Shown here in pieces: positions 67 through 31,676 of a stretch of 33,149 nucleotides of DNA. Below the pieces are notes generated by a model that saw only the letters and a program-made list of their open reading frames with translations, did no database searches and was not told where the DNA came from. Each line of letters opens with the position of its first letter. The stretch's first letter is position 1. The stretch is from Candidatus Saccharimonadota bacterium. Its GTDB lineage: Bacteria > Patescibacteriota > Saccharimonadia > Saccharimonadales > Saccharimonadaceae. Position numbers and translations under genes: made by a program. Where the stretch lies: the NCBI GenBank assembly GCA_027311865.1, contig DAICYC010000001.1, positions 1 to 33,149 on the forward strand, in the 5' to 3' direction.

Positions 67-604
67 CTATTTAACCACTCGGTAATTACTAACCGTGCCG
101 TAACCGAGCCAGTTTGTCTCACAACTGCCGATATAAGTATTCGTCTGCGGCGATGATTCGAGTCGATAAACTAGCAAGTACATCTGACCTGGACCAGCAC
201 CACAGTAGGCTACTCCTGATGAAGTGGACGTAAAGTAAGCATAGTTATAGCCAGTGCTCATAATATAGGCGCCAGCCGTACTAACGGGATCTGAAGGCAT
301 TTTTGATAAATATTTTGGCGATAGTTGATTTGCTAAATGCGCCCAACTCGCATCGGCAGTTGTGCTCCAACTAGAGTTTATTGAGGTTGAGCCTGAAGCA
401 GTCGGAAATCGTCCATTATCGATATAGTACATCTCGATAGCTTTTGTTATCGCTCTGATGTCGGACAATCGCTGGTAGTCGCGCGCCTTTTGTTGAACTG
501 CCATAAGCAACCACCGTAACAGACGCCAGAACGCCTATCACAACAATAACAATCAGCAGCTCTACAATCGTAAATCCACGCCGTCTTTCTGAACTCATTA
601 GCAT
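67..604 (-). pseudogene. Type IV prepilin (PilA/GspG-like), split by a frameshift
   Basis: Two overlapping minus-strand frames make one prepilin. The upstream frame (604 to about 500) has a short basic leader and the class III cleavage motif RRGFTIVELLIVIVV, with Glu at +5 of the mature protein, followed by the hydrophobic N-terminal helix. The downstream frame (about 498 to 67) continues as VQQKARDYQRLSDIRAI, the usual pilin alpha-helix, then IDNGRFP and a C-terminal globular part with two cysteines. Removing one base near 499 would give VVAYGVQQKARD and a protein of about 178 residues, a normal prepilin length. It would be cleaved by a prepilin peptidase and assembled by PilB-type machinery, for which a gene lies at the other end of the window. 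The split could be a sequencing error, a true pseudogene or phase variation. A TACAAT box (612-617) ends 7 bases before the ATG at 604. Confidence 0.85.
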
Positions 605-611
605 AAGCCCT

Positions 612-617
612 ATTGTA
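612..617 (-). promoter_or_regulatory. -10 box of the prepilin gene, leaderless type
   Basis: TACAAT on the minus strand ends 7 bases before the ATG at 604, so transcription would start at or next to the start codon. No clear -35 box and no Shine-Dalgarno sequence were seen. Confidence 0.5.
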
Positions 618-633
618 TTACGATTAGTCGATT

Positions 634-840
634 CTAGTCGACTTTTATATAGCGCTGCTTGATCACAATCGCCGCAACCACCAGACCGATTGCTAGCAAA
701 AATCCAACCACACCCCAGCCAAACGAGGGCATATCACCGGCATAAGCTTGATTCGAGGCCAATCTAAACGACCAATAAGTCACGGCTACACTCAAGGCCA
801 AGCAAGTACCGTACGCAATTTTTGCCAAATATTTGTTCAT
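634..840 (-). CDS. Small two-helix membrane protein, unknown function
   Basis: This 68-residue protein starts at MNKYLAKIAYG. The ORF-track start at 894 would overlap the upstream gene's end and adds a non-hydrophobic stretch, so ATG 840 was preferred. A TATAGT box (848-853) ends 7 bases before this ATG, which supports the choice. The protein has two hydrophobic helices (about residues 8-24 and 43-62) joined by a short loop, and a basic tail (KQRYIKVD). No family is recognised. It lies between the unassigned 857-1363 gene and the prepilin, all on the same strand, but each seems to have its own promoter. Confidence 0.6.
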   Translation of the reverse strand: MNKYLAKIAYGTCLALSVAVTYWSFRLASNQAYAGDMPSFGWGVVGFLLAIGLVVAAIVIKQRYIKVD

Positions 841-856
841 ATCTCTAACTATACGC

Positions 857-1363
857 CTAATCAACCAGCCGGACGCTAGATGGTTCAATATCATAAGTGA
901 TCATTATTTCCGGTCGGTCAATCATGCCTAGCGAAAATGATTCCAGCGGCGTTAGTTTACGCCAATAACTAGCCGCTAGTTCATCTAGCTTGCCAGAATC
1001 AGATGAGCCTTCGATAGCTCGCTTGAGGGAGTCATAGGTATCCAAGTCTGAGACGTAGCACCTGCGTGGATCAACAACGAGTTCAATAATTTTTTGTGAA
1101 GTCCCGCTGATGAATTCGTTGATCGAAGTAACGGCCCCATCCGTGATATCGACTATCTTATCCTCAAAACTGAAATAAGCATACAGGTTGTTAGAGCGAC
1201 TAACCCCTTGGCGAACGAGAGCCACGGGGCAACGATCATCGAGAAAAACATCGGTTTGCGCAATCAATTGATCATCACCTTTGTCACCCCGTGACGTCCG
1301 TTTGATACCATTGTCGAGTATCGACTGAAGATGATCGGGATTGACGACGTGATAGACTTTCAT
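857..1363 (-). CDS. Hypothetical protein, possible ADP-ribosyltransferase-like fold
   Basis: This soluble protein of about 168 residues has no certain family. The N-terminus, VYHVVNPDHLQSILDNGI, follows the pattern H-x(2)-N/P-x-h-x(2)-I-h-x(2)-G-h seen at the first strand and helix of many ADP-ribosyltransferase-fold proteins (DarT, KptA and related toxins). The C-terminus (RPEIMITYDIEPSSVRLV) resembles the late strand carrying the catalytic Glu in that fold. An aromatic segment (YAYFSFEDK) lies in the middle. This is a fold-level guess from motif spacing, not a match. ATG 1363 was chosen over 1372 because a TACCAT box ends 7 bases before it. No partner antitoxin or macrodomain gene is adjacent; the neighbours are a small membrane protein and a histidine phosphatase. 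Confidence 0.6.
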   Translation of the reverse strand: MKVYHVVNPDHLQSILDNGIKRTSRGDKGDDQLIAQTDVFLDDRCPVALVRQGVSRSNNLYAYFSFEDKIVDITDGAVTSINEFISGTSQKIIELVVDPRRCYVSDLDTYDSLKRAIEGSSDSGKLDELAASYWRKLTPLESFSLGMIDRPEIMITYDIEPSSVRLVD

Positions 1364-1407
1364 AACAGTCATGGTACAACGTTATTGCGATAGCTAGAAC
1401 CAGATTG

Positions 1408-1926
1408 CTAAACTTTTATCTGGATAATTGAAGCATTCTTATGGGGAACATGCGAATGATCCGGATCTAGAATCGCTTGCATTCGATTCAAAACGCCGCC
1501 ATGAGCAACTACTAAAACGCTATCATACGGCTTTTGCTTAAGCTCATCAAGAAAATTGCTCACGCGTTTCGTAAACTCATCCAGCGTCTCTGCACCTTCG
1601 ATTGATACCGAGTCATTCAATGACCAAAACTGCTCCCAGTCGTGACTATCTCGATGGGTCCCTGAAGCTTCGCCAAAGTTGCGCTCCCTAAGTCGTGAAT
1701 CTTCAGTATAGGGAATATTTCTGTATTTTAGGACAAACTCATGTGCGGTTCTAGACGCGCGTTTTAAGTCTGACGAGTATATAGCCTCGATATCCTCGTT
1801 GAATTTATCAGCTATAAACCGAGCCTGCTTCAGACCCTTCTCGTTCAGTGATGTATCAAGCCACCCTTGCACAATTCCTGTCGCATTTTCGTCAGTTTCA
1901 CCATGACGCACTAAATATACTTTCAT
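1408..1926 (-). CDS. Histidine phosphatase family protein (phosphoglycerate mutase-like)
   Basis: The 172-residue protein opens with LVRHGETDEN, the RHG motif whose His8 would carry the phosphate. It also has RLRERNFGE (Glu81, proton donor region) and VVAHGGVLNR (His142), the second catalytic histidine. This is a complete branch-2-like histidine phosphatase core. The substrate cannot be read from the sequence: members hydrolyse sugar phosphates, nucleotides, alpha-ribazole phosphate or phosphoserine. The short length and lack of mutase insertions favour a phosphatase over glycolytic GpmA. A TATACT box (1935-1940) ends 8 bases before the ATG, with no Shine-Dalgarno sequence. Confidence 0.92.
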   Translation of the reverse strand: MKVYLVRHGETDENATGIVQGWLDTSLNEKGLKQARFIADKFNEDIEAIYSSDLKRASRTAHEFVLKYRNIPYTEDSRLRERNFGEASGTHRDSHDWEQFWSLNDSVSIEGAETLDEFTKRVSNFLDELKQKPYDSVLVVAHGGVLNRMQAILDPDHSHVPHKNASIIQIKV

Positions 1927-1934
1927 TAACTACA

Positions 1935-1940
1935 AGTATA
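1935..1940 (-). promoter_or_regulatory. -10 box of the histidine phosphatase gene, leaderless type
   Basis: TATACT on the minus strand ends 8 bases before the ATG at 1926. It lies between the tRNA-Arg 3' end and the gene, in an A/T-rich stretch. No good -35 box is visible. Confidence 0.5.
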
Positions 1941-1972
1941 TAAGAAAAATAATTTCTATGTATAACGGAAAT

Positions 1973-2049
1973 TGGTACCCCGGGCTGGGCTCGAACCAGC
2001 GACCTTAGGCTTAGAAGTCCTCTGCTCTATCCTGCTGAGCTACCGGGGC
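1973..2049 (-). tRNA. tRNA-Arg (anticodon TCT)
   Basis: The cloverleaf is GCCCCGG / TA / GCTC..GAGC / anticodon loop CTTCTAA / T arm GCTGG-TTCGAGC-CCAGC / CCGGGGT / A, with CCA encoded. The anticodon stem is weak: GAGGA faces GCCTA, which gives only three Watson-Crick pairs with mismatches at 27-43 and 31-39. The first acceptor pair is G-U. A TATAAT box at 2058-2063, overlapping the stop codon of the HIT gene, ends 8 bases before the tRNA 5' end. Confidence 0.93.
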
Positions 2050-2057
2050 ATAGGGTA

Positions 2058-2063
2058 ATTATA
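2058..2063 (-). promoter_or_regulatory. -10 box of tRNA-Arg, overlapping the HIT stop codon
   Basis: TATAAT on the minus strand shares bases with the TAA stop of the HIT gene and ends 8 bases before the tRNA. The primary transcript would start almost at the mature 5' end. The -35 region is poor, so read-through from the HIT gene is also possible. Confidence 0.4.
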
Positions 2064-2520
2064 GCAAATGGCCGCTAATAACTTGATTGATTTCATCTAG
2101 TAACGAGTCGTCTACTAGCTTCACCTGATTCCGGTCGTAGTGAAAGCCAAACTTAGGGTCATCGAACACCATTCCGCCCACTTTAACCTTGTGATCGTAA
2201 CGCGGCCGAAAATGCCAGTGAACATGAGGTTGAGCCGGTTGCTTCTGGTAAGCATTATTCATCAAACAAACCCAATTGAAGAGTTTGGCCCCAAAAGATG
2301 CCGCCATTGCCGACTCCAACTTCCTGACGACTTCGACGAATTCTTGCCACTGCTTATCACTCAGCCTCGACAGAGTCTCTCGGTGCTCTTTTAATGTGAC
2401 ATAACATCTCCCGAGATAACCCTGATCTTGCGATAAGGTAACCGTCCAGAATCGAGTTTCAAACAATGGCTCGTTATGAGCTAGGGCCTGACATACTTCG
2501 CAGGTATTATTTTCGATCAT
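2059..2520 (-). CDS. HIT family protein
   Basis: The 153-residue protein carries the histidine triad PHVHWHF (His99, His101, His103), the nucleotide-binding and catalytic signature of HIT hydrolases or transferases. The N-terminus has CEVC (residues 7-10), half of the zinc site found in many HIT proteins. It ends with an aromatic, acidic tail (about 35 residues after the triad). HIT proteins cleave nucleoside phosphoramidates or dinucleoside polyphosphates; the substrate here is not predictable. The gene is followed 10 bases later by tRNA-Arg on the same strand. Confidence 0.9.
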   Translation of the reverse strand: MIENNTCEVCQALAHNEPLFETRFWTVTLSQDQGYLGRCYVTLKEHRETLSRLSDKQWQEFVEVVRKLESAMAASFGAKLFNWVCLMNNAYQKQPAQPHVHWHFRPRYDHKVKVGGMVFDDPKFGFHYDRNQVKLVDDSLLDEINQVISGHLL

Positions 2521-2610
2521 ATCCCATCAATATTTACTCTACACCAGCCAAAGATTGTTGACAATTTTTAGAAGTGTTACCTGGCACAGTTTTAAGAACT
2601 TAAACGAGAA

Positions 2611-2633
2611 GAACCAATCACAAGGATTGGTTC
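2611..2633 (-). terminator. Hairpin terminator downstream of tRNA-Gly
   Basis: A 9-bp perfect stem GAACCAATC / GATTGGTTC with a 5-base loop is followed on the minus strand by TTCTCGTTT. It lies 7 bases after the tRNA-Gly CCA end. The U tract is interrupted, so strength is uncertain. Confidence 0.6.
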
Positions 2634-2639
2634 GTTTCA

Positions 2640-2714
2640 TGGTGCGGGCGGAGAGAATCGAACTCTCATCACATGCTTGGAAGGCACGTATATTAGCCAT
2701 TATACGACGCCCGC
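2640..2714 (-). tRNA. tRNA-Gly (anticodon TCC)
   Basis: The acceptor stem GCGGGCG/CGCCCGC is perfect. The anticodon loop CTTCCAA gives TCC, the T arm is GAGAG-TTCGATT-CTCTC, the discriminator base is A, and CCA is encoded. The D arm GTAT/ATAT is the short A/T-rich type usual for tRNA-Gly. Confidence 0.96.
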
Positions 2715-2724
2715 AGACCGAGTC

Positions 2725-2753
2725 ATTATAGCATATTCTCAAGCGAGCGCCAA
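2725..2753 (-). promoter_or_regulatory. Promoter of tRNA-Gly
   Basis: On the minus strand, TTGGCG (2748-2753) and TATAAT (2725-2730) are 17 bases apart, and the -10 box ends 10 bases before the tRNA. The region overlaps the divergent tRNA-His promoter. Confidence 0.7.
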
Positions 2754-2764
2754 TCTGTTACAAT
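2736..2764 (+). promoter_or_regulatory. Promoter of tRNA-His
   Basis: On the plus strand, TTCTCA (2736-2741, 4 of 6 matches) and TACAAT (2759-2764) are 17 bases apart. The tRNA begins 22 bases after the -10 box. It overlaps the divergent tRNA-Gly promoter. Confidence 0.5.
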
Positions 2765-2786
2765 ACATGTTGATATCGACAAACCT

Positions 2787-2864
2787 GGCGGATATAGCTC
2801 AGTTGGTTAGAGCGCCTGATTGTGGTCCAGGAGGTCGTGGGTTCAATTCCCATTATTCGCCCCA
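2787..2864 (+). tRNA. tRNA-His (anticodon GTG), with encoded G-1
   Basis: Alignment by the D stem GCTC/GAGC puts G2787 at position -1, paired with discriminator C73, the usual histidine identity element. The acceptor is GCGGATA/TATTCGC, the anticodon loop TTGTGGT, the T arm GTGGG-TTCAATT-CCCAT, and CCA is encoded. The anticodon stem CCTGA/CCAGG has an A-C mismatch at 31-39. Confidence 0.95.
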
Positions 2865-2873
2865 GGTTGATAT

Positions 2874-5303: not shown

Positions 5304-5665
5304 TCGATTGCCATCAAAATAAAACCAGCGACAGGCAAAATTGGCAGAATCAACCAGATAGCCAAAGCGACCGCCCCGGCTAGTAGATGTCCGAACAATA
5401 CTACCAGTCCAACCAAGATCGTACCCGACCGAACGAAGGCTCCAACAATACGTGATATCAGCCGATCAATAAAGGCCCGAAATTGTATCGATAACGATCC
5501 GCCAACCCGTCCGGCCGAAATTTGTCGAAACGGCGAAAACAAAGTCTTGAATAATTGACCAATCGAAAAGAAATCGGCGGCGCCTTTGATGCGACGACCA
5601 ATCCGACTAGCTTCTTCCGCCCAACCTCGGCCATACCACCACTGCATCAGACCCACCAAAAACAT
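5282..5665 (-). CDS. Small membrane protein coupled to the Clp-type ATPase
   Basis: The 127-residue protein starts with hydrophobic MFLVGLMQWWYG. It continues with an amphipathic basic region (residues about 15-75, including LFKTLFSPFRQ) and ends with about two strong transmembrane helices (about 78-100 and 102-122). No family is recognised. Its stop codon overlaps the start of the Clp-type gene, and both appear to share one promoter. It may be a membrane adaptor or anchor for that ATPase, which is inference from gene order only. A TATAAT box (5672-5677) ends 6 bases before the ATG. Confidence 0.75.
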   Translation of the reverse strand: MFLVGLMQWWYGRGWAEEASRIGRRIKGAADFFSIGQLFKTLFSPFRQISAGRVGGSLSIQFRAFIDRLISRIVGAFVRSGTILVGLVVLFGHLLAGAVALAIWLILPILPVAGFILMAIDWIPRWM

Positions 5666-5671
5666 AACCTC

Positions 5672-5677
5672 ATTATA
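5672..5677 (-). promoter_or_regulatory. -10 box of the membrane protein-Clp operon, leaderless type
   Basis: TATAAT on the minus strand ends 6 bases before the ATG at 5665. A GAGG between box and start could act as a ribosome site only if transcription began upstream. It is divergent from the murT promoter. Confidence 0.55.
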
Positions 5678-5703
5678 TCACTCGCTCTAGACAAGCTATA
5701 CAG

Positions 5704-5709
5704 TATAAT
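5704..5709 (+). promoter_or_regulatory. -10 box of murT-gatD, leaderless type
   Basis: TATAAT on the plus strand ends 7 bases before ATG 5717, which puts the expected +1 at the start codon. No Shine-Dalgarno sequence is present and the -35 region is weak. Confidence 0.55.
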
Positions 5710-5716
5710 TGGATAT

Positions 5717-6994
5717 ATGTTCACCAAACTTACCGTCCCAATCGGCAAGGCCGTCCGGGCACTCATGAGACTTCGCGGCGGCGGCTCGGCCCTACCCGGC
5801 TTGATCGTCGAACGATTAGATCCCGATTTTGTGAAACGAACGTTAATTGACCTACCTCATGGAGTAGTCCTCGTTAGCGGCACCAACGGTAAGACAACCA
5901 CTACTAAAATGGTCGTATCACTACTTGAATCAGCTGGCTTAAAAGTCTTCACTAACCGAACCGGTAGTAATTTTGTTCGCGGCGTAGCAGCCGCCCTGGT
6001 AAAAGACGTTGACCTGACCGGACATCTCGACGCCGATGTTGCCGTCCTAGAATTAGACGAAGCTCATGCCGTTCGCTTTATAGAAGTAATTAAACCTCGA
6101 ACCAGTCTGCTACTAAACGTCATGCGCGATCAGCTAGACCGCTTTGGTGAGATTGACTCCACTGCCCGCCTGCTCACAACCGTCGCTCAAGCTACTAGTC
6201 GCAACGTCATTCTCAACCGCGAAGATCCTCGCATACGAGACATTGCCAAGCAACTGTCGGATTCACAAAACATCACCTACTTTGGACTCAGCGACATCGT
6301 TCGAGCCAACTTCCCTAACGACGACGATATCCATTCACTCCGCCTAGTCGAACAGCAAAATCTACCTGAGGCTAGCGTACTTTTAATGGGCTATGGTGAT
6401 GGCGAGGCTACGCTATCAATTAATCAGCAAATCTACACCACCAAACTAAAGATTCGCGGCATCTATAATGTCTTCAATGCGGCCGCAGCGGTAGCAACGG
6501 TTCGAGCTGTATTAGGGGATGACACTTCAAATGCCGATTTAATCAATAGCCTTAGTAACGTCACCCCTGCCTTTGGTCGTGGTGAAACTCTGATTATTGA
6601 TCACCAACCACTAGAACTTGTCTTGGTCAAGAACCCGTCAGGTTTTCGATTGAGCCTACAATCGTTCGATCCGACAAATTATGCCACAATGATCGCAATT
6701 AACGATAACTACGCCGATGGTCGTGATATGTCCTGGCTGTGGGATGTCGAATTTGACTCCTTGACCGAAGAAGGAGTCGCTATGGTAACTGGCGTTCGGG
6801 CTTACGATATGGCACTTCGACTCCAATATGATGAAATTACTGTCGACAAAGTTGACCCCGACATCGATTCGGCTCTCAAGCAGTTCGTCAAGTCCAATCG
6901 ATCTAAACCGAAGCGAATCTACTGTACCTACACTGCCATGCTGGCTATTCGAAAGAGTTTGCGCCGATTAACCAAAGTGGAGATAGTGTCATGA
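5717..6994 (+). CDS. murT: Lipid II isoglutaminyl synthase, Mur ligase-like subunit MurT
   Basis: MurT activates the alpha-carboxyl of the stem-peptide D-Glu of lipid II with ATP, and GatD supplies ammonia, giving D-isoglutamine. The 425-residue protein has the Mur ligase P-loop SGTNGKTTTTK (about residues 54-64), a Mur central region (VAVLELDEAH, LNVMRDQLDRFGE) and the DUF1727 C-terminal domain with DNYADGRDMSWLWDVEF. The start is MFTKLTVP; the ORF-track start at 5555 runs back over the divergent gene. In Staphylococcus and Streptococcus MurT the middle domain carries a Cys4 zinc ribbon. Here that region has no cysteines at all. The gene overlaps gatD by 4 bases (ATGA), consistent with a tight heterodimer. 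Confidence 0.95.
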   Translation: MFTKLTVPIGKAVRALMRLRGGGSALPGLIVERLDPDFVKRTLIDLPHGVVLVSGTNGKTTTTKMVVSLLESAGLKVFTNRTGSNFVRGVAAALVKDVDLTGHLDADVAVLELDEAHAVRFIEVIKPRTSLLLNVMRDQLDRFGEIDSTARLLTTVAQATSRNVILNREDPRIRDIAKQLSDSQNITYFGLSDIVRANFPNDDDIHSLRLVEQQNLPEASVLLMGYGDGEATLSINQQIYTTKLKIRGIYNVFNAAAAVATVRAVLGDDTSNADLINSLSNVTPAFGRGETLIIDHQPLELVLVKNPSGFRLSLQSFDPTNYATMIAINDNYADGRDMSWLWDVEFDSLTEEGVAMVTGVRAYDMALRLQYDEITVDKVDPDIDSALKQFVKSNRSKPKRIYCTYTAMLAIRKSLRRLTKVEIVS

Positions 6995-7713
6995 CCAACC
7001 GAGAAATAACTATCGTTCACTTGTATCCCGAAAAGATGAATATATATGGCGACAATGGCAACGTCCTAGTTTTGAAACGACGCCTGGAGTGGCATGGCTA
7101 TGAGCCTCACGTCATCGATTACAATGTTGGCGACGCCTTTCCTGAACATGTTGATATTCTAGTTGGTGGTGGCGGTCAAGACAGTGGCCAGATTAGCATC
7201 CATGACGACTTGATGAAAGTCGGGCCCCGCCTGCAGGAACTAGCCGACCATGATACACCGATGTTATTAGTCTGTGGACTCTATCAGCTATTTGGTAAGT
7301 TCTTTAAAACAGCTGATGGAACTAATCTAAAAGGAATCGGCATTTTCGATATTGAGACGCACGCCACGAACGAACGTCTGATTGGTAATGTCATTAGCCA
7401 CAACGACACATTTGGTGACATCATTGGCTACGAGAATCATAGCGGCCAGACTTATTTAGGCGAGAGGGCCCAGCCATTTGCTCGTGTCAAGAAAGGTGCT
7501 GGCAACAATTCGCAGGACAAACACGAAGGCGCCCGTTACCGAAATGTCATCGGTACTTATCTGCATGGCTCTCTGCTTCCGAAGAATCCCCGAATTGCTG
7601 ACTTTATGATTGAGATTGCTGTTCGAAAACGCTACGGTGATTTTTCTCCTCAGGTTATCGACGATCTCTTCGCGGACTTGGCCCGCGATGTCGCTAGCCA
7701 GCGACCACGCTAG
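6991..7713 (+). CDS. gatD: Lipid II isoglutaminyl synthase, glutamine amidotransferase subunit GatD
   Basis: This class I (CobB/CobQ-like) glutaminase releases ammonia from glutamine for MurT. The 240-residue protein has VGGGGQDSGQ (residues 58-67), the catalytic cysteine in LLVCGLYQLFG (Cys95) and the catalytic histidine in GTYLHGSLLPKNP (His192). These are the typical GatD residues. The start ATG overlaps the murT stop as ATGA, so translation is probably coupled. Its stop codon overlaps the stop of the convergent comEC-like gene by a few bases, with no room for a separate terminator. Confidence 0.95.
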   Translation: MTNREITIVHLYPEKMNIYGDNGNVLVLKRRLEWHGYEPHVIDYNVGDAFPEHVDILVGGGGQDSGQISIHDDLMKVGPRLQELADHDTPMLLVCGLYQLFGKFFKTADGTNLKGIGIFDIETHATNERLIGNVISHNDTFGDIIGYENHSGQTYLGERAQPFARVKKGAGNNSQDKHEGARYRNVIGTYLHGSLLPKNPRIADFMIEIAVRKRYGDFSPQVIDDLFADLARDVASQRPR

Positions 7714-9140: not shown

Positions 9141-9164
9141 CTATTCATGTTAATAAGTGGTCTT

Positions 9165-10166
9165 TTACTTATCGTTAAAAGTCAGTCCGTTGTCCTCAAC
9201 GAGCGATCTAAAATTATACATACCGCGACCCTCCGTCTTGTAGTTCCAGTAAAAAGTCGCCACTGATCGGTGAAACATTCGGCGTTGACGAGCGATAGTC
9301 TGAAGTAACATTTCTCGATGCTCCTCGATTGGTCGTCGATTAAACATTGGCTGCGGCAGGACTGAACTCCACTCGCCTACCATGACCGGCTGCGGCAAAC
9401 TCACCAATCGAATCAATAAACGATACAACCAACCTCTAATTCGATCATAGGCGGCGGGCTTTAGGTTAGCCAATAACTTCGGGAAAATTAAATATAGATG
9501 AGTGTCCATTATGACCGGGTAGTCGGAACGAACTCGAAGCGCACCACTGAAGAATGGCGGCAAAAAGCCGTCCTGAAAGACGACGATTGTACCGGGACGT
9601 AGAATTGAACAAAGCCGATCGTAAGCCTCTCGATAAAACCTCAACAGCGCAAAATAATGTCCGAAGACATGCGGCTCATTGATAATTTCTAACCCCCATA
9701 GAGCAGGGCTATCGCAATACCGACCAGCAAGCTCAGTCAGGATTGATAGATTTTCTTCATAATAAGCTAGCCAGTCCATTCGCTGCGTGTCACCGCTATG
9801 AACCTTACCGTTCTGAGAACCCTTCAGACCATGAAAATCGAGCAGTATCTTGATGTCATACTTTTGGGCCATTTCAAACGCCCAATCGAGCTCGCGTCGA
9901 GCATTTAGAAACGGCTTATCATCGTTCAACACCCAGTACCCGACTGGTAAACGAACATAGCCGACAGAGTTCGCCTTTAGCCATGACCAGTCCTCTTCCG
10001 TCATAAAGCTAGTCCGATGACGCTGAATTTTGTCTCCCGCGTCAGGTGTCATCATCAAGCTCCGCTCATCGACAGCCCCGGTTCCCCGAAACAATGACGG
10101 GGTCATCCAGGGCTCCAATATGAGCCAACCGCCCAAATTAACTCCTTCAATCGGTGATGTTGCCAT
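9165..10166 (-). CDS. Glycoside hydrolase family 5, exo-beta-1,3-glucanase-like
   Basis: The 333-residue protein starts at MATSPIEGVNLGGW. The N-terminal GVNLGGWLILEPWMTPSLF closely resembles fungal exo-1,3-beta-glucanases of the GH5_9 type. The GH5 acid/base is Glu164 in IINEPHVFG and the nucleophile is Glu265 in VMVGEWSS. HG in LLDFHGLKGSQN and the later MDTHLY also fit the family. A full (beta/alpha)8 catalytic domain seems present. No signal peptide or membrane anchor is seen after the chosen ATG, so secretion is unclear. The ORF-track extension to 10292 crosses the promoter and the divergent gene. The substrate could be host or biofilm glucan, or an internal oligosaccharide. TATACT (10173-10178) ends 6 bases before the ATG. 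Confidence 0.88.
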   Translation of the reverse strand: MATSPIEGVNLGGWLILEPWMTPSLFRGTGAVDERSLMMTPDAGDKIQRHRTSFMTEEDWSWLKANSVGYVRLPVGYWVLNDDKPFLNARRELDWAFEMAQKYDIKILLDFHGLKGSQNGKVHSGDTQRMDWLAYYEENLSILTELAGRYCDSPALWGLEIINEPHVFGHYFALLRFYREAYDRLCSILRPGTIVVFQDGFLPPFFSGALRVRSDYPVIMDTHLYLIFPKLLANLKPAAYDRIRGWLYRLLIRLVSLPQPVMVGEWSSVLPQPMFNRRPIEEHREMLLQTIARQRRMFHRSVATFYWNYKTEGRGMYNFRSLVEDNGLTFNDK

Positions 10167-10172
10167 GCATAT

Positions 10173-10180
10173 AGTATACT
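10173..10180. promoter_or_regulatory. Shared palindromic -10 region for two divergent genes
   Basis: AGTATACT reads TATACT on both strands. On the minus strand it ends 6 bases before the GH5 ATG (leaderless type). On the plus strand (10175-10180) it lies 25 bases before ATG 10206, followed by an AAAGGAG ribosome site at 10188-10194. The -35 regions are weak on both sides. The two polymerases could not bind at once. Confidence 0.5.
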
Positions 10181-10205
10181 TGACCCTAAAGGAGCAAACA
10201 CAAAC

Positions 10206-11226: not shown

Positions 11227-11234
11227 ACTTTGCT

Positions 11235-11841: not shown

Positions 11842-12302
11842 TCGACATTCTCCATATTCATCCTAAATCGTGCAACCGAGTCGAGCTTGATAGCGTGCTC
11901 GGCGACTGCGCCAGCTGACAGCTCAATGATATACCTAGCATCGGTCTCAGGGCGATAAACCATCTCCATTCCCAAATCAGGGTCAGCCTTTTCGACGATT
12001 TTTATGACTTTCCTGTCGTTATCGAGCCAAACAATATCGAGCGGAATCTTCATATCTTTCATCCAAATGCCATGTTGTCCCCCGTATCGATAAGCAAACA
12101 GCATTCCACCATTCGGTGGCAACGTCGACACGCCGCTCAAGCCTTGAATTCGTTCAGCACTGCTATCAGCAATTTTGAGTTGGAATCGACCGCCACCTAG
12201 TCGAACAGATATCGTTTCAGATGGCTGATAGTAGTTATACAAGAGAAATCCGGCAGCGACAGCCAAACCGACGACAATAATAATCTTGATCAACTTGCTC
12301 AT
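11838..12302 (-). CDS. DUF192 family protein, membrane-anchored
   Basis: The 154-residue protein has an N-terminal transmembrane helix or uncleaved signal (about residues 4-25) and a DUF192 domain. Typical DUF192 features are ERIQGLSGVSTLPPNGGMLF and GIWMKDMKIPLDIVWLD, followed by YIIELSAG near the C-terminus. The biochemical role of DUF192 is not established, although related proteins occur in secreted or envelope contexts. The domain would face outside. A TATAAT box at 12323-12328 lies 20 bases before ATG, giving a short leader without a clear ribosome site. The gene overlaps the following membrane protein by 4 bases. Confidence 0.9.
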   Translation of the reverse strand: MSKLIKIIIVVGLAVAAGFLLYNYYQPSETISVRLGGGRFQLKIADSSAERIQGLSGVSTLPPNGGMLFAYRYGGQHGIWMKDMKIPLDIVWLDNDRKVIKIVEKADPDLGMEMVYRPETDARYIIELSAGAVAEHAIKLDSVARFRMNMENVE

Positions 12303-12339
12303 CGCTTAATTACCATGAGCGTATTATAACATTTTGTGA

Positions 12340-14939: not shown

Positions 14940-14968
14940 AGTATATAAAACTAGCACTCTGATGTCCA
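14940..14968 (-). promoter_or_regulatory. Promoter of dnaJ
   Basis: On the minus strand TGGACA (14963-14968) and TATACT (14940-14945) are 17 bases apart. The -35 box lies inside the CIRCE spacer and the -10 box ends 10 bases before the dnaJ ATG, predicting a very short leader. Confidence 0.7.
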
Positions 14969-14977
14969 GAGTGCTAG
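14951..14977. promoter_or_regulatory. CIRCE operator (HrcA site) of dnaJ
   Basis: CTAGCACTC-N9-GAGTGCTAG is the CIRCE inverted repeat (consensus TTAGCACTC-N9-GAGTGCTAA, one change at each outer end). It lies 22 bases upstream of dnaJ and covers the -35 box. Confidence 0.95.
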
Positions 14978-15005
14978 TAGTGAAGATTGGTGTCGCTAGT
15001 CTAAA

Positions 15006-18065: not shown

Positions 18066-18095
18066 ATTGTAAATAAATTAGCACTCTCGTGTCAA
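18066..18095 (-). promoter_or_regulatory. Promoter of dnaK
   Basis: On the minus strand consensus TTGACA (18090-18095) lies inside the CIRCE spacer, and TACAAT (18066-18071) lies 18 bases downstream. The leader would be about 55 bases, with AAGGAG near its end. Confidence 0.8.
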
Positions 18096-18104
18096 GAGTG
18101 CTAA
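18078..18104. promoter_or_regulatory. CIRCE operator (HrcA site) of dnaK
   Basis: TTAGCACTC-N9-GAGTGCTAA is a perfect consensus CIRCE. It covers the -35 box and part of the promoter spacer. Confidence 0.98.
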
Positions 18105-19330: not shown

Positions 19331-19360
19331 ATTATAGCAAATTGACTAGCACTCAATCAA
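19331..19360 (-). promoter_or_regulatory. Promoter of hrcA-grpE
   Basis: On the minus strand TTGATT (19355-19360) lies within the CIRCE spacer, and TATAAT (19331-19336) is 18 bases downstream. The expected +1 falls at or next to the hrcA ATG. Confidence 0.75.
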
Positions 19361-19372
19361 CAAGAGTGCTAG
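19346..19372. promoter_or_regulatory. CIRCE operator (HrcA site) of hrcA-grpE
   Basis: CTAGCACTC-N9-GAGTGCTAG is a CIRCE repeat identical in its arms to the dnaJ site. It overlaps the last bases of gmk (stop at 19369-19371). Confidence 0.95.
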
Positions 19373-23519: not shown

Positions 23520-23537
23520 ATGGATCGACTTGTCTAA

Positions 23538-25403: not shown

Positions 25404-25449
25404 AAAGTATGTGTCCTTTCAGGAGATCAGAAATAAATGTCTATCTATG

Positions 25450-26283
25450 TTATTTTAACAGTGACAGGGAAAAATTACGAGTACTGATAGATATCCGAAT
25501 CTGGCCGCCGAGCTCGAGCTGAGAACCTGGTCGAGCGGTTTTTATTGCCAGCAACAATCGCTCCATCTGCGGGCGAGTTAATTTGGCTTGAGTCAGGTGA
25601 CGAATCACCTCTACTGCGACTGGTTGAGGCATCATAATAAACGAATGCCGACGATACTCGCCTGGTCCAGATTGGTAGTCAGACAGTTCGCGATCAATAG
25701 CCGCTTTGATCTCTATTTGTCTTAGGCGAAGTTGCGCAAGTTGCGCCACATTCGACTCGGACAAGTCAAGCACTCCTGCTCGCAGTCGATTACGCAAGTA
25801 GCGATGATCCCGGTTAGTCGAATCTTCTGACCACTCAAGCTGATGATGAAGCGCATAGCGATACAGCTGTTCTTTGGATAACGCTAGTAGCGGTCGCGCT
25901 ACATCACTACCGTGCGTCGCCAAGCCACGCCAACCAGTCCCGCGACTTATGTTTATGGCCATCGTCGCTATCACATCATCTCGATGATGAGCGGTGACAA
26001 TTCGAGCATCGTACTTTTTAGCGACCTGTCGAAGAAATCGATAGCGAACCTTACGAGCCGCTTCTTCGCTAGCCTTCGGGCCGAGCTCATAGCGGCACGA
26101 CTCATAGATCAAACCGTAGCGGTGAGCCAGCGCTGCAACAAAACGCTCGTCGGCGGCCGAATCGGCTCGAATCCCGTGATCAACATGAGCCACGACAATA
26201 TCATTATCACCGACTTGTACCATCATATCGAGCAAAACGACCGAATCGACACCTCCGCTAACCGCCACAACATATCGCGCCAT
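25450..26283 (-). CDS. tilS: tRNA(Ile)-lysidine synthase TilS (short form)
   Basis: TilS changes the CAU anticodon of tRNA-Ile2 to lysidine so that it reads AUA. The 277-residue protein has the PP-loop VVAVSGGVDSVVLLDMM (residues 5-21) and the family motifs VAHVDHGIRADSAADE, ARKVRYRFL, TAHHRDDVIATMAINISRGTGWRGLATHG and WSEDSTNRDHRYLRNRLR. The C-terminal part after about residue 190 is short, so the second tRNA-binding domain found in E. coli TilS is reduced or absent. The gene precedes ftsH. A TATAAT box (26292-26297) ends 8 bases before the ATG. Confidence 0.95.
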   Translation of the reverse strand: MARYVVAVSGGVDSVVLLDMMVQVGDNDIVVAHVDHGIRADSAADERFVAALAHRYGLIYESCRYELGPKASEEAARKVRYRFLRQVAKKYDARIVTAHHRDDVIATMAINISRGTGWRGLATHGSDVARPLLALSKEQLYRYALHHQLEWSEDSTNRDHRYLRNRLRAGVLDLSESNVAQLAQLRLRQIEIKAAIDRELSDYQSGPGEYRRHSFIMMPQPVAVEVIRHLTQAKLTRPQMERLLLAIKTARPGSQLELGGQIRISISTRNFSLSLLK

Positions 26284-26291
26284 ATGTCTTC

Positions 26292-26315
26292 ATTATATTC
26301 CAGACGCGCTATAAT
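26292..26315. promoter_or_regulatory. Back-to-back -10 boxes for tilS and the OpgC-like gene
   Basis: The minus-strand TATAAT at 26292-26297 ends 8 bases before tilS ATG 26283. The plus-strand TATAAT at 26310-26315 ends 8 bases before ATG 26324. The whole divergent region is only 40 bases, so both mRNAs should be leaderless or nearly so. A TTGACA on the minus strand at 26319-26324 is too far (21 bases) for a standard spacer. Confidence 0.55.
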
Positions 26316-26323
26316 GATTGTCA

Positions 26324-27394
26324 ATGTCAGAAAAAACTTCAAATTCAGAACGTTTCGCCGTCCTCGATTGGCTTCGCGGCTATTTTATTATCGTAATTAT
26401 CGTCGACCACTTGTCGCGCTGGCCAAGCATCTGGAGCACCATATCAGGTAAAGCCTGGCTGTGGGTCACCGCCGCCGAAGGTTTTATCATCATTTCGGGG
26501 TTATTGGTAGGCTATATTCGCGGCTATAAGAAACGCTTCGATCCAATGAACCTCGTCACCAAATCTCTACTCAAGCGTGCCCTAACTCTCTATATCTGGG
26601 CCGTTCTAGGCACGATTGTTTATACTACGCTGATTTGGTACTTACCTCTGATTGGTGGCGCCCCTGGGATGCCGGTTAGTCGTGGTGACTGGTCATCGTT
26701 AATCGGTCGAGCGGTGATACTAGACTTCACCTACGTTTGGGTATACTTCCTCAAGCTGTACGCCGTCTTTTTGGCCTTCGCGCCAATTGCCGTGTGGCTA
26801 CTACGTCGGTCACAAGCCGGAATGTTAATGTCAATCAGCACCAGTCTACTCATGATCGGCTGGGCAACTCAAAATGAACTGCTGCAATGGCAATTCTTGT
26901 TCTTTATTCCGAGCATGGTCGGCTATCATCTCGACGAAATAATTAATTGGTGGCGTCGAACCACATCAACGATTCGGGCGAGCTTATCTTGGTCGGTCAT
27001 CGGGCTGTCTCTGGTGACTATTGTTTTGTCGGTCTTAGCCACCTTCCATCAGTCAACAATCTCCAGCCTAGCTAGTGCTCTGAATCCGTTATTCGAAAAA
27101 GACACCATCAGCTTAGCTCGAGCCGGTATGGCCTTCTTGTGGTTCAGCGGCCTCCTGTTAATCTTTATCAAGGCCCGTCATTTTATTGCCCGCTGGCTGG
27201 CTTGGTTAATCGAGCCCATCGGACGCAGTTCTCTCACCGCCTATATACTTCACGGGATGGCCCTAATTACTATCAGCTCACTTACTGCGAGCGGTAGCAA
27301 CATCTTTATCAATAGCGCCCTGGGTGCCGCCGCCGTCTTGATTGTCTGGAGTTTGCTAAAAATCCCTCGAATCAATCGTGTTATTCCGCGCTAG
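26324..27394 (+). CDS. OpgC/acyltransferase-3-like polytopic membrane protein
   Basis: The 356-residue protein begins with a short polar segment and then FAVLDWLRGYFIIVIIVDHLSRWPS, the first helix and R/H motif of the OpgC and acyltransferase-3 families. WVTAAEGFIIISGLLVGY follows. Around ten membrane helices are spread over its length. OpgC-like proteins add succinyl or acetyl groups to glycans, and related proteins O-acylate surface polysaccharide; the substrate here is unknown. ATG 26324 was chosen over TTG 26318 by the -10 spacing. Its 3' end overlaps the convergent GT39 gene by about 14 bases. Confidence 0.82.
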   Translation: MSEKTSNSERFAVLDWLRGYFIIVIIVDHLSRWPSIWSTISGKAWLWVTAAEGFIIISGLLVGYIRGYKKRFDPMNLVTKSLLKRALTLYIWAVLGTIVYTTLIWYLPLIGGAPGMPVSRGDWSSLIGRAVILDFTYVWVYFLKLYAVFLAFAPIAVWLLRRSQAGMLMSISTSLLMIGWATQNELLQWQFLFFIPSMVGYHLDEIINWWRRTTSTIRASLSWSVIGLSLVTIVLSVLATFHQSTISSLASALNPLFEKDTISLARAGMAFLWFSGLLLIFIKARHFIARWLAWLIEPIGRSSLTAYILHGMALITISSLTASGSNIFINSALGAAAVLIVWSLLKIPRINRVIPR

Positions 27395-28955
27395 CGGTTT
27401 GGAGCTTGATACCTTTGTATAGGCTCTTACCGTCAACTGGGCTAACAGCCTCCACTCGATCAATCGTTTCGAGGCTATCCCGCGGGGCTTCTAGTTCAGC
27501 TGAAGCGTGACCGATGTACCAGACAGTCGGATGTTCAAGCAGGAACTTATCTAAATCTTTAATTTTAAAGCGATCGTCTTCTTGTAGCATCAACAGTGAG
27601 CCAAATTCGTACTTGGTCGACTTGTCGAGGAAGTAGATTGGATAGTCTTCGCTATTATAAAAAGCCGCCTCATAAAACACCCAAGGTGTATTAGTTATAA
27701 TCGGCGTGCCCGGTTCACTTCGCTCCCGGACCATCATAACCACGTTACGAGTCTGAATATCGGTTCGAGAGTTCTTGTTGTAGTTACCGTAAAAATACAT
27801 TGTCGATAAGCCGCTCATTAGCATCGCCAAGACAATGGCCGCGACCGTTAGCTTAGCCCAAATACTACTTCGCCGCAGTCCGACCACTAGAACCAAACCA
27901 ACAAACAGAGCCGAAGCGACCGCCGCCGGCAACAAATAGCGTTCGACAAACGATGACTGGAGCGGTGGTAGTGAAGCTGCGTACAGCACCAGTGGCGGTA
28001 CTGCCGCTAGGCATAGCAGCAACCAATACGACCGACGTTCAGCGACTCGCAGCCGACGATAAGTCACCACCGCCGAAACACCCACTACAATCGCCATCAA
28101 TATTAGACCGGCCGACTGCCAGCCGACAACCTGATTACTCTGAAGGAAATAAACGAGCGTTCCGAAATAACTGCCGACCGAATCGACACCTACTGGACTG
28201 ATCCAGAATCCACCCGACTGGATAACCACCAGTTGATAAACCATAGACGGCAACCATGGCAGAAACAAACCGATCGCCAAGCCATACGCTATCAGCCAAT
28301 CTTTATCAAAGAAACGCTTTAGTAAGACCTTGCCGGTGGCTCCTTTCTGACGAATCACCACCACTCGCCATACCCAATGCGCAATCCAGACGAGGGCCAT
28401 AAAATAATGCGTCAACATACCGGCGGCCACCAAGACACCGTAAATAATCCAATCGCGTCGTCGCTTGCTGTCTAAAGCGATTGTCATAACATAAGTCGCC
28501 GCCATCGCAATCGCCGCCGACATCGTGTACATCCGAGCTTCTTGACTATAGCGAATGAATAGCGGTGATAGCACTAATATCGCCAATGAAATAATTGCCA
28601 CCTGCTTACCGAACTGACGTCGCATCCAAGCGTAGCCGAAACCAGCCGCCACCACACCGAACACAATACTAAGTGATCGCAACCCAACCTCGGTGTAACC
28701 AAAAATCGTCGACCAGACTTTTAACACCCAGTAATACAGTGGCGGATGGACGTCGGCCGCTGTATAGCGAGCAATGTCGTAGGCGTTAAACTGAATAATA
28801 TAAGCGCTAAACGCCTCATCGAACCAAATCGCCCCCTTGGTGAGGTTCCATAGCGACAAGCTAACATAAACCCCGAGAAGTAAACCGACCAGTACCCATT
28901 CATATGTTGTTCGGGTGCGCAAAAAAGTTGTGACATTATCAAATAGCTGTTTCAT
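27381..28955 (-). CDS. Glycosyltransferase family 39 (PMT/ArnT-like) membrane protein
   Basis: The 524-residue protein is a GT-C-fold enzyme that moves a sugar from a polyprenyl-phosphate donor to a protein, lipid or glycan. It has a first helix, then the extracytoplasmic loop with IWFDEAFSAYI, where the Asp-Glu pair is the usual catalytic site, and ADVHPPLYYWVLKVW. About ten further helices follow, and then a soluble C-terminal domain (about 420-524). The start is MKQLFDN at 28955, with GGTGA upstream; the ORF-track start at 29114 runs through the antisense of tRNA-Pro and is not real. Acceptor and donor are unknown. Its neighbour is the OpgC-like protein, another envelope-glycan candidate. 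Confidence 0.88.
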   Translation of the reverse strand: MKQLFDNVTTFLRTRTTYEWVLVGLLLGVYVSLSLWNLTKGAIWFDEAFSAYIIQFNAYDIARYTAADVHPPLYYWVLKVWSTIFGYTEVGLRSLSIVFGVVAAGFGYAWMRRQFGKQVAIISLAILVLSPLFIRYSQEARMYTMSAAIAMAATYVMTIALDSKRRRDWIIYGVLVAAGMLTHYFMALVWIAHWVWRVVVIRQKGATGKVLLKRFFDKDWLIAYGLAIGLFLPWLPSMVYQLVVIQSGGFWISPVGVDSVGSYFGTLVYFLQSNQVVGWQSAGLILMAIVVGVSAVVTYRRLRVAERRSYWLLLCLAAVPPLVLYAASLPPLQSSFVERYLLPAAVASALFVGLVLVVGLRRSSIWAKLTVAAIVLAMLMSGLSTMYFYGNYNKNSRTDIQTRNVVMMVRERSEPGTPIITNTPWVFYEAAFYNSEDYPIYFLDKSTKYEFGSLLMLQEDDRFKIKDLDKFLLEHPTVWYIGHASAELEAPRDSLETIDRVEAVSPVDGKSLYKGIKLQTASAE

Positions 28956-28988
28956 AATTATCACCATAATACCACGGCGACAAACCTC

Positions 28989-29017
28989 TAGAAAAACTGT
29001 CCGATACGGTGTATAAT
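28989..29017 (+). promoter_or_regulatory. Promoter of tRNA-Pro
   Basis: On the plus strand TAGAAA (28989-28994) and TATAAT (29012-29017) are 17 bases apart. The tRNA starts 20 bases after the -10 box. It lies divergent from the GT39 gene. Confidence 0.65.
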
Positions 29018-29036
29018 CACCTTCGGACACACACAT

Positions 29037-29113
29037 CGGGGTGTGGCGCAGTTGGCTAGCGCGCGCGGTTTGGGACCGTGAGGTCGAAGGTTCGAATCCT
29101 TTCACCCCGACCA
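29037..29113 (+). tRNA. tRNA-Pro (anticodon TGG)
   Basis: The acceptor CGGGGTG/CACCCCG, D stem GCGC/GCGC, anticodon arm CGCGG-TTTGGGA-CCGTG and T arm GAAGG-TTCGAAT-CCTTT are consistent, with discriminator A and encoded CCA. The anticodon stem ends with a G-U pair. Confidence 0.96.
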
Positions 29114-29116
29114 TAG

Positions 29117-29145
29117 AAAAAAGGACACAATACGTGTCCTTTTTT
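29117..29145. terminator. Bidirectional terminator between tRNA-Pro and rny
   Basis: AAAAAAGGACAC / GTGTCCTTTTTT is a perfect 12-bp stem with a 5-base loop and A/T runs on both sides. It lies 4 bases after tRNA-Pro on the plus strand and 22 bases after the rny stop on the minus strand. Confidence 0.92.
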
Positions 29146-29166
29146 CTTGCGTGAAATTATTTATTT

Positions 29167-30678
29167 CTACTTCGCATACTCAATCGCCCGAGTCTCTCGG
29201 ATCACATTGACCTTGATAGTACCAGGGTATTGCATCGTGCTTTCGATTTTGTTGGCGATGTCGCGAGCTAGCTTAATCGCCGAAAGGTCATCGATGCTTT
29301 CCGGTCGGACGATAACACGGACTTCACGTCCAGCGCTGATAGCAAAGGACTTTTCGATGCCCGGGAAGCTATTGGCCACGTTTTCGAGGTCACGCATCCG
29401 TTCAGCAAAGTTCTCGGCGCTGATGTTGCGCGCGCCCGGACGGGCCGCCGACAAGGCGTCACAGATACGAACGATGATTGCTTCTGGTGTGGTCGCTTCG
29501 ATGTCATCGTGATGAGCTTCGATAGCGTGAACGATTTCGTCACTCAAGCCGTACTTTCGAGCCAACTCGGCACCGATATGATGGTGCTTACCTTCAACCT
29601 TATGGGTAACAGCCTTGCCGATGTCGTGGAGCAGTGTCGCAATCTTGGTGATTCGCACATCAGCTCCAATCTCTTCCGCAATCAAGCCGGCCATATGGGC
29701 CATTTCCGTGCTGTGCATCAGAACATTTTGACCAAAGCTGGTTCGGAATTTCAGCTCACCAAGCAAATGAAGCATTTCTTTAGGAATACCGACGACACCA
29801 ACCTCTCGGGCCGCATCTTCACCGGTACGAACGACTTCTTTTTCGATTTCTTTTTGGGCCTTGGCGACCACTTCTTCAATTCGGCCCGGATGGATACGGC
29901 CGTCTTTCATGAGCATTTCTAACGACAAACGAGCCACCTGTCGACGCATCGGATCGAAGCTCGAGAGAATAACCATACCTGGCGTATCATCTACCATGAT
30001 ATCGACACCAGTAGCCCGCTGTAGCGCCTGAATGTTGCGGCCTTCTTTACCAATAATTCGGCCCTTCATTTCATCATCTGTCAGCTTCAGAGCTGTCACG
30101 GTTCGTTCGGCCGTCACCTCGCTGCTCATTCGTTCCATGGCGGTGACGAGGATCATCTGCGCCTTTTCTTCGGCTGTTTCTTCGGCATCATTTTGAAGCT
30201 TACTGACCAGACCAAGCAAATCCTGCTTGATATCACGCTCCGTCATATCCATTAACTTCTGAGCCGCCTCGGCTTTTTTGAGGCCAGCAATTTTTTCTAA
30301 CTTCTCCTGTTGACGCGTTCGGATTTCACGAATTTCATTCTTCAAGTCTTCAACTTCATCCTCTTGCGCACGAAGCTTCTCGGCTCGCTTATCGAGCTCA
30401 TCGAGCTTGCGATCTAAACTAGTCTCTCGTTCAGCCAAGCGACTCTCGGTCTTGTCCCACTGCTTACGTCGATCCGACTCTTCTCTCTTGGCTTCATCGG
30501 CCAAGCGAACGGCCTCGTCTTTGGCTTTGAGAACGATGTCGCTAGCCTTTGTTTTGGCGTCGGCGATTAATTGATCGGCTCGGTGCTTACCACCGGTCAC
30601 CTTTGCTCTCGTGTAAGTCACCGCCCCGCCGGCACCAGCTAAAACACCGATAATTGCGGCGATAATTGCTTCAACCAT
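29167..30678 (-). CDS. rny: Ribonuclease Y
   Basis: RNase Y is a membrane-bound endoribonuclease that starts mRNA decay. The 503-residue protein has an N-terminal membrane helix (residues 1-20), a long charged coiled coil (about 30-170) and a KH domain with RIIGKEGRNIQALQ (about 208-221) and DDTPGMVILSSFDP. The HD domain has LLHDIGKAVTH (HD at 351-352) with upstream HSTEMAHMAGLIAEE and KHHHIGAELARKYG. It is full length and complete. Shine-Dalgarno GAGGAAGGA is good. It is probably the main mRNA-turnover enzyme. Its terminator is shared with tRNA-Pro. Confidence 0.98.
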   Translation of the reverse strand: MVEAIIAAIIGVLAGAGGAVTYTRAKVTGGKHRADQLIADAKTKASDIVLKAKDEAVRLADEAKREESDRRKQWDKTESRLAERETSLDRKLDELDKRAEKLRAQEDEVEDLKNEIREIRTRQQEKLEKIAGLKKAEAAQKLMDMTERDIKQDLLGLVSKLQNDAEETAEEKAQMILVTAMERMSSEVTAERTVTALKLTDDEMKGRIIGKEGRNIQALQRATGVDIMVDDTPGMVILSSFDPMRRQVARLSLEMLMKDGRIHPGRIEEVVAKAQKEIEKEVVRTGEDAAREVGVVGIPKEMLHLLGELKFRTSFGQNVLMHSTEMAHMAGLIAEEIGADVRITKIATLLHDIGKAVTHKVEGKHHHIGAELARKYGLSDEIVHAIEAHHDDIEATTPEAIIVRICDALSAARPGARNISAENFAERMRDLENVANSFPGIEKSFAISAGREVRVIVRPESIDDLSAIKLARDIANKIESTMQYPGTIKVNVIRETRAIEYAK

Positions 30679-30796
30679 ATTGTTTCCTTCCTCGGTCGCA
30701 TCTGGCTAAGTGTACGTCTTAGCAAAAAAGATTGATCACAGACACAACCGAAATACATCAAAAAATATTCAAACGTCTTGTATAACAGACTTTATT

Positions 30797-30826
30797 ATTG
30801 TAGCCCTGTTTACATCATTCACGCAA
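30797..30826 (-). promoter_or_regulatory. Candidate promoter of rny
   Basis: On the minus strand TTGCGT (30821-30826) and TACAAT (30797-30802) are 18 bases apart. The predicted leader of about 110 bases is the longest in the window. The -35 box lies in a small hairpin CACGCAA/TTGCGTG (30820-30839) that overlaps the tsaB stop codon. Confidence 0.45.
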
Positions 30827-30828
30827 GG

Positions 30829-31221
30829 CTATTTGCGTGGCTGGGTAATATGCGCTTGTCCGCCATACTCCGGCATGACGACCCGGTCATTTTCTGAGGC
30901 CTCTAGTCGATTCAGCCCCACCTCGAGCCAGTCGTCGCTATCGTCGACGCCAACAATTGGCACCGCTAAGCTTTCAGCTAGCGTGTTGGCCACCGTTAGG
31001 CCGATACGTAGTCCGGTATAACTACCCGGCCCACGCATAACAATCAGACCGTGAATTGATTCTAGGCCATCCATACCGACGTCCTGGAGGGCTTCGATGA
31101 GATGTTTGTGTAGATTCGCCGCCAGGGTTCGTCCGGCTTCCCAATCAAAGCTTTCCCACTGTCCATCGACGTATAGCCGTAAACGGCAAACAGGGGTTGA
31201 GGTGTCGAGTGCCACTAGCAT
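30829..31221 (-). CDS. tsaB: TsaB, tRNA threonylcarbamoyladenosine biosynthesis (short form)
   Basis: TsaB supports TsaD in making t6A at position 37 of ANN-reading tRNAs. The 130-residue protein starts LVALDTSTPVCRLRLY and has the core motif VMRGPGSYTGLRIGLTVANTLA (about residues 61-82), followed by VPIVGVDD. Usual TsaB proteins are about 200-230 residues. Here nearly all of the second ASKHA-like lobe is missing, and the ORF ends at a proper stop 20 codons after a polar segment. The start overlaps the tsaE end by 7 bases, so the pair is coupled. TsaD and TsaC are not in the window. Confidence 0.88.
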   Translation of the reverse strand: MLVALDTSTPVCRLRLYVDGQWESFDWEAGRTLAANLHKHLIEALQDVGMDGLESIHGLIVMRGPGSYTGLRIGLTVANTLAESLAVPIVGVDDSDDWLEVGLNRLEASENDRVVMPEYGGQAHITQPRK

Positions 31222-31661
31222 GATAATTCCTTTGTAATTTCCGGTGCGCCGTCAATATCGAGCGCCCGTTCATTTTCACTGATAACTGTAAATCTAATTC
31301 GCAAACGATCAGCCGGTAGATTGTCCGCTACGATATCGGCCCACTCGATAACTGTAACAGTATGTCGATCAGCCATGGCTTCTTGGATATCTTCGCTCAA
31401 CACGCCAGCCTCACCTAATCTGTAAAAATCATAGTGCGCCAAGACGATGTCATCTCGACCTTCGTAGACTCGGCTAATTGTGAAACTTGGGCTCTGAATC
31501 TCATCGGTAATATCTAAGCCTTGCGCCAAACCTTTGACAAAGGTCGTCTTGCCAGCCCCGACATCGCCCGATAGTTCGATCGTTTCGTGGCCAACTAAAA
31601 GTCGTCCGACTTGTTCACCAAAGCCGCGCATTGCTTGCTCATTCAAAATAATCTTATTCAC
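31215..31661 (-). CDS. tsaE: TsaE, tRNA threonylcarbamoyladenosine biosynthesis ATPase
   Basis: TsaE is the P-loop ATPase that resets the TsaBD complex during t6A synthesis. The 148-residue protein has ELSGDVGAGKTTFVKGLAQGL (Walker A about residues 32-39), the conserved SPSFTISRVYEG and HYDFYRLGE segments, and VIEWADIVADNLP with the Trp-Ala-Asp motif. The length is normal. The start is GTG at 31661. A TATAAT box at 31671-31676 ends 9 bases before it. The gene overlaps tsaB. Confidence 0.94.
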   Translation of the reverse strand: MNKIILNEQAMRGFGEQVGRLLVGHETIELSGDVGAGKTTFVKGLAQGLDITDEIQSPSFTISRVYEGRDDIVLAHYDFYRLGEAGVLSEDIQEAMADRHTVTVIEWADIVADNLPADRLRIRFTVISENERALDIDGAPEITKELSC

Positions 31662-31670
31662 TACGGTGAC

Positions 31671-31676
31671 ATTATA
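31671..31676 (-). promoter_or_regulatory. -10 box of tsaE-tsaB, near-leaderless type
   Basis: TATAAT on the minus strand ends 9 bases before the GTG start. It lies in the 63-base divergent region shared with pilB. Confidence 0.5.

Follow-up and report, generated by a model that had tools for sequence, protein, structure and literature searches.

Promoter-like -10 boxes abutting start codons predict widespread leaderless mRNAs in a Saccharibacteria genome

Leaderless genes have been predicted in Actinobacteria and Deinococcus-Thermus from a TA-like -10 signal some 10 bp ahead of the start codon, which coexists with genes carrying a Shine-Dalgarno (SD) sequence and is tied to operon-proximal genes (Zheng et al. 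2011, PMC3160421); in genomes having such genes, they average 19% in Actinobacteria, 39% in Deinococcus-Thermus and 5% in Chloroflexi (PMC3160421). According to a later article citing Lomsadze et al. 2018, leaderless transcription is predicted for 21.6% of bacterial species, where it would account for up to 40% of transcripts (PMC9581028). Here we describe a comparable arrangement in a Saccharibacteria draft genome of 639 kb (29 contigs, 92% complete, 48.6% GC), considering in detail a window of 33,149 bases (bases 1-33,149 of the 118,605-base contig DAICYC010000001.1) and, for the genome-wide analysis, 638 of the 639 kb. The HrcA of this genome has its closest relatives in Candidatus Saccharibacteria, which makes Saccharimonadia (Patescibacteria) the most likely placement. 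The likeness to the systems of Zheng et al. extends to the position of the -10 signal, its coexistence with SD genes, its preference for operon-proximal genes and its similar proportions, and the differences lie in the small genome, the 49% GC content and the full TATAAT consensus. The genome would also fit the leaderless class of GeneMarkS-2, as far as that class is described in the article citing Lomsadze et al. 2018 (PMC9581028). The text of Zheng et al. mentions neither TM7 nor any candidate phylum (PMC3160421), and in the literature combining leaderless mRNA with Saccharibacteria, Patescibacteria or the Candidate Phyla Radiation we found passing mentions or reference titles only, which is weak evidence, as the search covered few subscription papers. 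A 2024 perspective considers translation regulation to be probably key in these bacteria and leaves leaderless mRNA unmentioned (PMC11665869). Such a mechanism has been described in other bacteria; its predicted presence in this lineage is apparently unreported.

Genes were called with a home-made coding-score caller that uses coding statistics alone and has no start motif in its model, so that a genome-wide test of spacing between box and start codon is not circular. A strict box was defined as TA....T matching TATAAT in at least five of six positions, and distance was counted as the nucleotides between the end of the box and the start codon, with 6-9 nt as the main range and 16-19 nt as the control range. 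Before leading genes, strict boxes numbered 23, 14, 8 and 10 at 6, 7, 8 and 9 nt, and from 0 to 6 at any other distance below 25 nt, so that the peak which the initial annotation of the window had expected across the genome was indeed present. The exact pattern TATAATN{6,9}ATG occurs 69 times, and in 48 of these the ATG is either a called start or an alternative one close by in the same frame; TATAATN{16,19}ATG occurs 18 times, never in such a position. Strict boxes at 6-9 nt precede 85 of the 356 first-in-unit genes (23.9%), against 3.3% in dinucleotide shuffles and 2.5% in the 16-19 nt range with the same pipeline; in 200 kb of E. coli K-12, treated identically gene by gene, they precede only 1 of 114 first-in-unit genes (0.9%; p=1e-10 versus this genome). 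A 50-kb Deinococcus plasmid, MP1, was too small and too GC-rich to serve as a positive control. Inside operons the box is much less common (19 of 221 genes, about 9%; p=2e-6 versus first-in-unit genes).

A two-motif mixture model fitted by expectation-maximization (EM) with AGGAGG and TATAAT as seeds converged on AGGAG(a) and TATAAT; for TATAAT, the spacers were chiefly 6, 7, 8 and 9 nt. The share of TATAAT was 25-31% over all genes, 39-50% in divergent genes, 61-67% in genes located 25-59 nt behind a same-strand neighbor and 18-28% in those at least 60 nt behind one; for operon-internal genes, which lie less than 25 nt behind the preceding gene, it dropped to 11-15%, with 69-79% assigned to SD. 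Two of the sequence features by which Zheng et al. define leaderless genes are found here: a TA-like -10 signal with a positional peak some 10 bp ahead of the start, and its concentration in the first genes of units, with SD in distal genes. The coexistence of two initiation modes, with leaderless starts favored in first genes, had been suggested for the window, and both the counts and the EM contexts support it for the genome. We consider it very likely that leaderless mRNAs are widespread among first genes and that the remaining genes rely on SD. The -10 elements would be placed so that sigma-70-dependent transcription starts at the first base of the start codon or 1-3 nt before it, yielding mRNAs on which the ribosome could start without SD, and operon-internal genes, along with some first genes such as dnaK, would use SD sites. 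Overall, about 20-30% of genes seem, from these signals, to be leaderless in what is probably a host-dependent bacterium; the initial annotation had called such a rate notable, and it is indeed high, but not unprecedented in view of the Deinococcus-Thermus and Actinobacteria averages.

By its sequence context and its bias towards first-in-unit genes, the box is a sigma-70 promoter element and not a ribosome-binding site, the third of the features in the definition of Zheng et al. In the 103 boxed genes, TTGACA-like hexamers (at least four of six matches) were found 14 and 11 times at spacers of 17 and 18 bp, while shuffles yielded about 4.5 at each (25 versus 9.1 in total), and 37% of boxes are immediately preceded by TGn. 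Boxed genes start with ATG in 99 of 103 cases (p=0.001 versus other genes). Predicted 5′ structure did not differ significantly between boxed and SD genes (-3.9 versus -4.7 kcal/mol, p=0.09). The same 103 genes also display an excess of TTGACA-like hexamers 9 bp before the box (12 versus 4.1 expected).

Within the window, 10 of the 32 starts have a strict hexamer at 6-9 nt, and all ten lack an SD core. With the shuffle rate of 0.033, ten or more such starts would arise by chance with a probability of 5e-8, which rises to 8e-4 when each gene is granted three start choices. The positions and distances of these ten boxes had been listed earlier, with the remark that most lack SD, and all ten boxes were confirmed. 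On the minus strand, TACAAT (612..617) lies 7 nt before ATG 604 of a pilin-like gene with an N_methyl domain, in which the box was found at 9 and 11 nt in two relatives; TATAGT (848..853) lies 7 nt before ATG 840 of a small open reading frame (ORF) at 634-840; and TATACT (1935..1940) lies 8 nt before ATG 1926 of a histidine phosphatase/PGM-like gene. The TATAAT of a small membrane protein gene (5672..5677, minus strand, 6 nt before ATG 5665) and that of murT (5704..5709, plus strand, 7 nt before ATG 5717) are arranged back to back, 26 bp apart, as are, at 12 bp, those of tilS (26292..26297, minus strand, 8 nt before ATG 26283) and an OpgC/acyltransferase-like gene (26310..26315, plus strand, 8 nt before ATG 26324). 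The remaining boxes, all on the minus strand, are TATACT (10173..10178) 6 nt before ATG 10166 of a GH5-like gene, a less certain start, since coding score alone picked the later ATG at 10106; TATAAT (19331..19336) 7 nt before ATG 19323 of hrcA; and TATAAT (31671..31676) 9 nt before GTG 31661 of a TsaE-like gene. To these we add dnaJ, absent from the earlier list, with TATACT (14940..14945, minus strand) 10 nt before ATG 14929. SD cores are present at dnaK, grpE, rimK and rny, four genes for which a good SD had been noted, and also at ftsH. Two divergent pairs of the window (5665-5717 and 26283-26324) belong to a set of ten divergent ORF pairs genome-wide, others being on contigs C22, C28, C23, C17 and C2, with a box and a start on both strands and starts about 37-69 bp apart, which would make them very compact back-to-back leaderless promoters; in four of the ten the boxes are separated by 12-15 bp.

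Comparison of orthologs shows that boxes and SD sequences are both retained, indicating that the two modes are inherited gene by gene. In 63 of the 67 relatives with a readable hrcA start, the box ends 5-11 nt before it, and in 54 at exactly 6 nt, with the letters between box and ATG varying freely; in dnaJ it is found in 33 of 36 relatives at 7-11 nt, mostly 8 or 10, and the OpgC-like gene has kept it in 10 of 11. Relatives of dnaK, grpE and rimK have no box (0 of 48, 0 of 11 and 0 of 15) and almost invariably an SD (46 of 48, 11 of 11 and 15 of 15). Among the examples singled out initially, hrcA is thus well conserved, but tilS is not, as its box was seen in only 4 of 29 relatives.

The hrcA gene also provides a link to the HrcA/CIRCE heat-shock regulon, which is represented here by the HrcA gene itself and by repeats resembling TTAGCACTC-N9-GAGTGCTAA, the controlling inverted repeat of chaperone expression (CIRCE), before hrcA, dnaK and dnaJ. 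The hrcA operator (19347..19371, minus strand) has a 9-nt spacer containing the -35 hexamer TTGATT (19355-19360), which reads TTGACA in many relatives; upstream of dnaJ there is a CIRCE-like inverted repeat, TAGCACTC-N9-GAGTGCTA (14950..14978, minus strand); and dnaK, a gene with an SD and a longer leader, is preceded by a CIRCE-like repeat whose spacer contains TTGACA (18078..18104, minus strand). Nearly all hrcA relatives have CIRCE upstream, its 9-nt spacer containing TTGACA or a variant, and the box follows at a distance of about 18 bp. The start codon, the -10, the -35 and the operator thus form one fixed unit, in which HrcA, bound to the CIRCE surrounding the -35, would block RNA polymerase and thereby repress its own leaderless mRNA. 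This departs from the described regulon in that hrcA and dnaJ are apparently leaderless and that the hrcA -35 lies within the CIRCE spacer in most relatives. The papers found to mention HrcA, CIRCE and leaderless together are, judging by their titles, on other bacteria.

Could the box, instead of being a promoter, be an AT-rich ribosome-binding signal other than SD, of the kind proposed for Bacteroidetes? It does lie in the region of such signals and marks genes lacking SD; however, a signal read by the ribosome should be equally common inside operons, where the box is about three times rarer, and would not account for a canonically spaced -35 and preceding TGn, nor for the fixed spacing between the hrcA box and the TTGACA inside CIRCE, so that we regard this explanation as very improbable. 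Slightly better placed, but still improbable, is the view that the boxes are real promoters giving rise to very short leaders of about 3-10 nt instead of none. The spacer distribution does tail to 9-11 nt, and dnaJ boxes are 7-11 nt away; however, the modal spacer is 6 nt, which at the canonical sigma-70 spacing places +1 on the A of ATG, and it is this spacing that hrcA keeps in most of its relatives. The least credible option is that starts were mis-assigned and that true starts lie downstream behind SD, making these ordinary leadered genes. Start calling without a motif is imprecise, and a later codon scored better for tilS, ftsH and the GH5 gene; however, the 6-9 nt peak persists in genes with only one plausible start (21% of 86 leading genes and 48% of 23 genes with gaps of 25-59 nt), and in most of the relatives found the conservation of HrcA begins at residue 1.

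Several points nevertheless weigh against leaderless initiation as described above. The model assigned the box with posterior >0.5 to 148 of 600 genes and >0.9 to 115, but shuffled upstream regions still exceeded these thresholds in 42 and 8 of 600, which brings the net number of boxed genes nearer to 100-140. A box that occupies 7-15 nt upstream of the start sits where an SD would be, so that box and SD exclude each other partly for mechanical reasons. Start codons rest on the home-made caller and not on proteomics; the 16S gene of this genome is truncated at the end of a contig, leaving the anti-SD outside the sequence; and the transcript start at the AUG, together with ribosome entry at a 5′-terminal AUG, is inferred, the former from promoter spacing. 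As to the translation machinery, S1, IF3 and YchF are encoded in the genome and the 16S 3′ end retains CCTCC in three relatives, TM7i included, so that nothing suggests an altered ribosome. YchF is an ATPase reported, in work cited in PMC12641178, to promote leaderless translation. In the ychF gene, too, TATAAT precedes the ATG by 7 nt (contig C22, 36294-36309, minus strand).

Judged by the same sequence patterns, the signal extends across Saccharimonadia and is patchy in other Patescibacteria. In loci pooled from 68 Saccharibacteria contigs, many of whose genes are orthologous and hence not independent, a strict box precedes the start by 6-9 nt in 52% of the divergent genes whose start is unambiguous and by 16-19 nt in 3%, and in the complete Saccharibacterium TM7i the first-in-unit value is 26.6%. 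The whole-genome N{6,9}:N{16,19} ratio, which is diluted by high AT content, was 2.6 in the family (16 genomes, the own genus among them), 1.6 in 7 other genomes of the order and 3.6 in 3 of the class. Among 97 genomes from other classes of the phylum, an incomplete and non-random sample of 261, the median was 1.5, with a ratio of at least 2 in 32 and below 1.2 in 34; gene by gene, the peak was confirmed in the high-ratio genomes G165 and G144, while the low-ratio G012 and G218 were barely above their controls. In G165, a complete Patescibacteria genome of 1.05 Mb (L135, L157-L166, L198), EM assigned a -10 box to about 47% of genes, and the SD-like motif was diffuse, with an SD core in 5-13%, yet the 16S tail ends in GGATCACCTCCTTT. 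We tentatively suggest, with the balance somewhat against it, that throughout Saccharimonadia and in several further classes of Patescibacteria leaderless initiation may be a conserved mode of major importance, and in some, such as G165, the main one despite the retained anti-SD. In four Chloroflexota genomes (G290-G293; L123, L125-L127), TATAATN{6,9}ATG was 2- to 5-fold in excess over the reversed control (34:7, 33:8, 67:16 and 38:18), and the small sample of loci, too few for the purpose, gave no peak at the gene level.

Patescibacteria, with their small ribosomes and reduced genomes, make up a large and hardly cultured share of bacterial diversity. If a fifth to a quarter of genes are indeed leaderless, start annotation tuned to SD would put many starts in the wrong place, a 5′ leader could be almost dispensed with in the design of expression cassettes, and conditions favoring leaderless mRNA might serve to tune translation. 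It would also add a lineage to the debate over the age of leaderless initiation, and hrcA and dnaJ offer a conserved and directly testable set.

A few other features of the window deserve mention. On the minus strand at 12302-12328, TATAAT is located 6 nt before the ATG of a five-codon ORF, the TGA of which shares bases with the ATG of the following gene (ATGA), itself devoid of SD; it is possible that this leaderless micro-ORF hands ribosomes over to that gene, and a search for similarly coupled micro-ORFs returned few cases. A tRNA-Arg (1973-2063, minus strand) starts 8 nt past a TATAAT box, so that a tRNA promoter is likewise packed against its gene. Finally, a tRNA-Pro (29037-29114, plus strand) overlaps the N-terminal extension (MVGVKGFEPSTSRSQTARASQLRH...) of a membrane protein ORF (27381-29114, minus strand), the true start of which is probably downstream.
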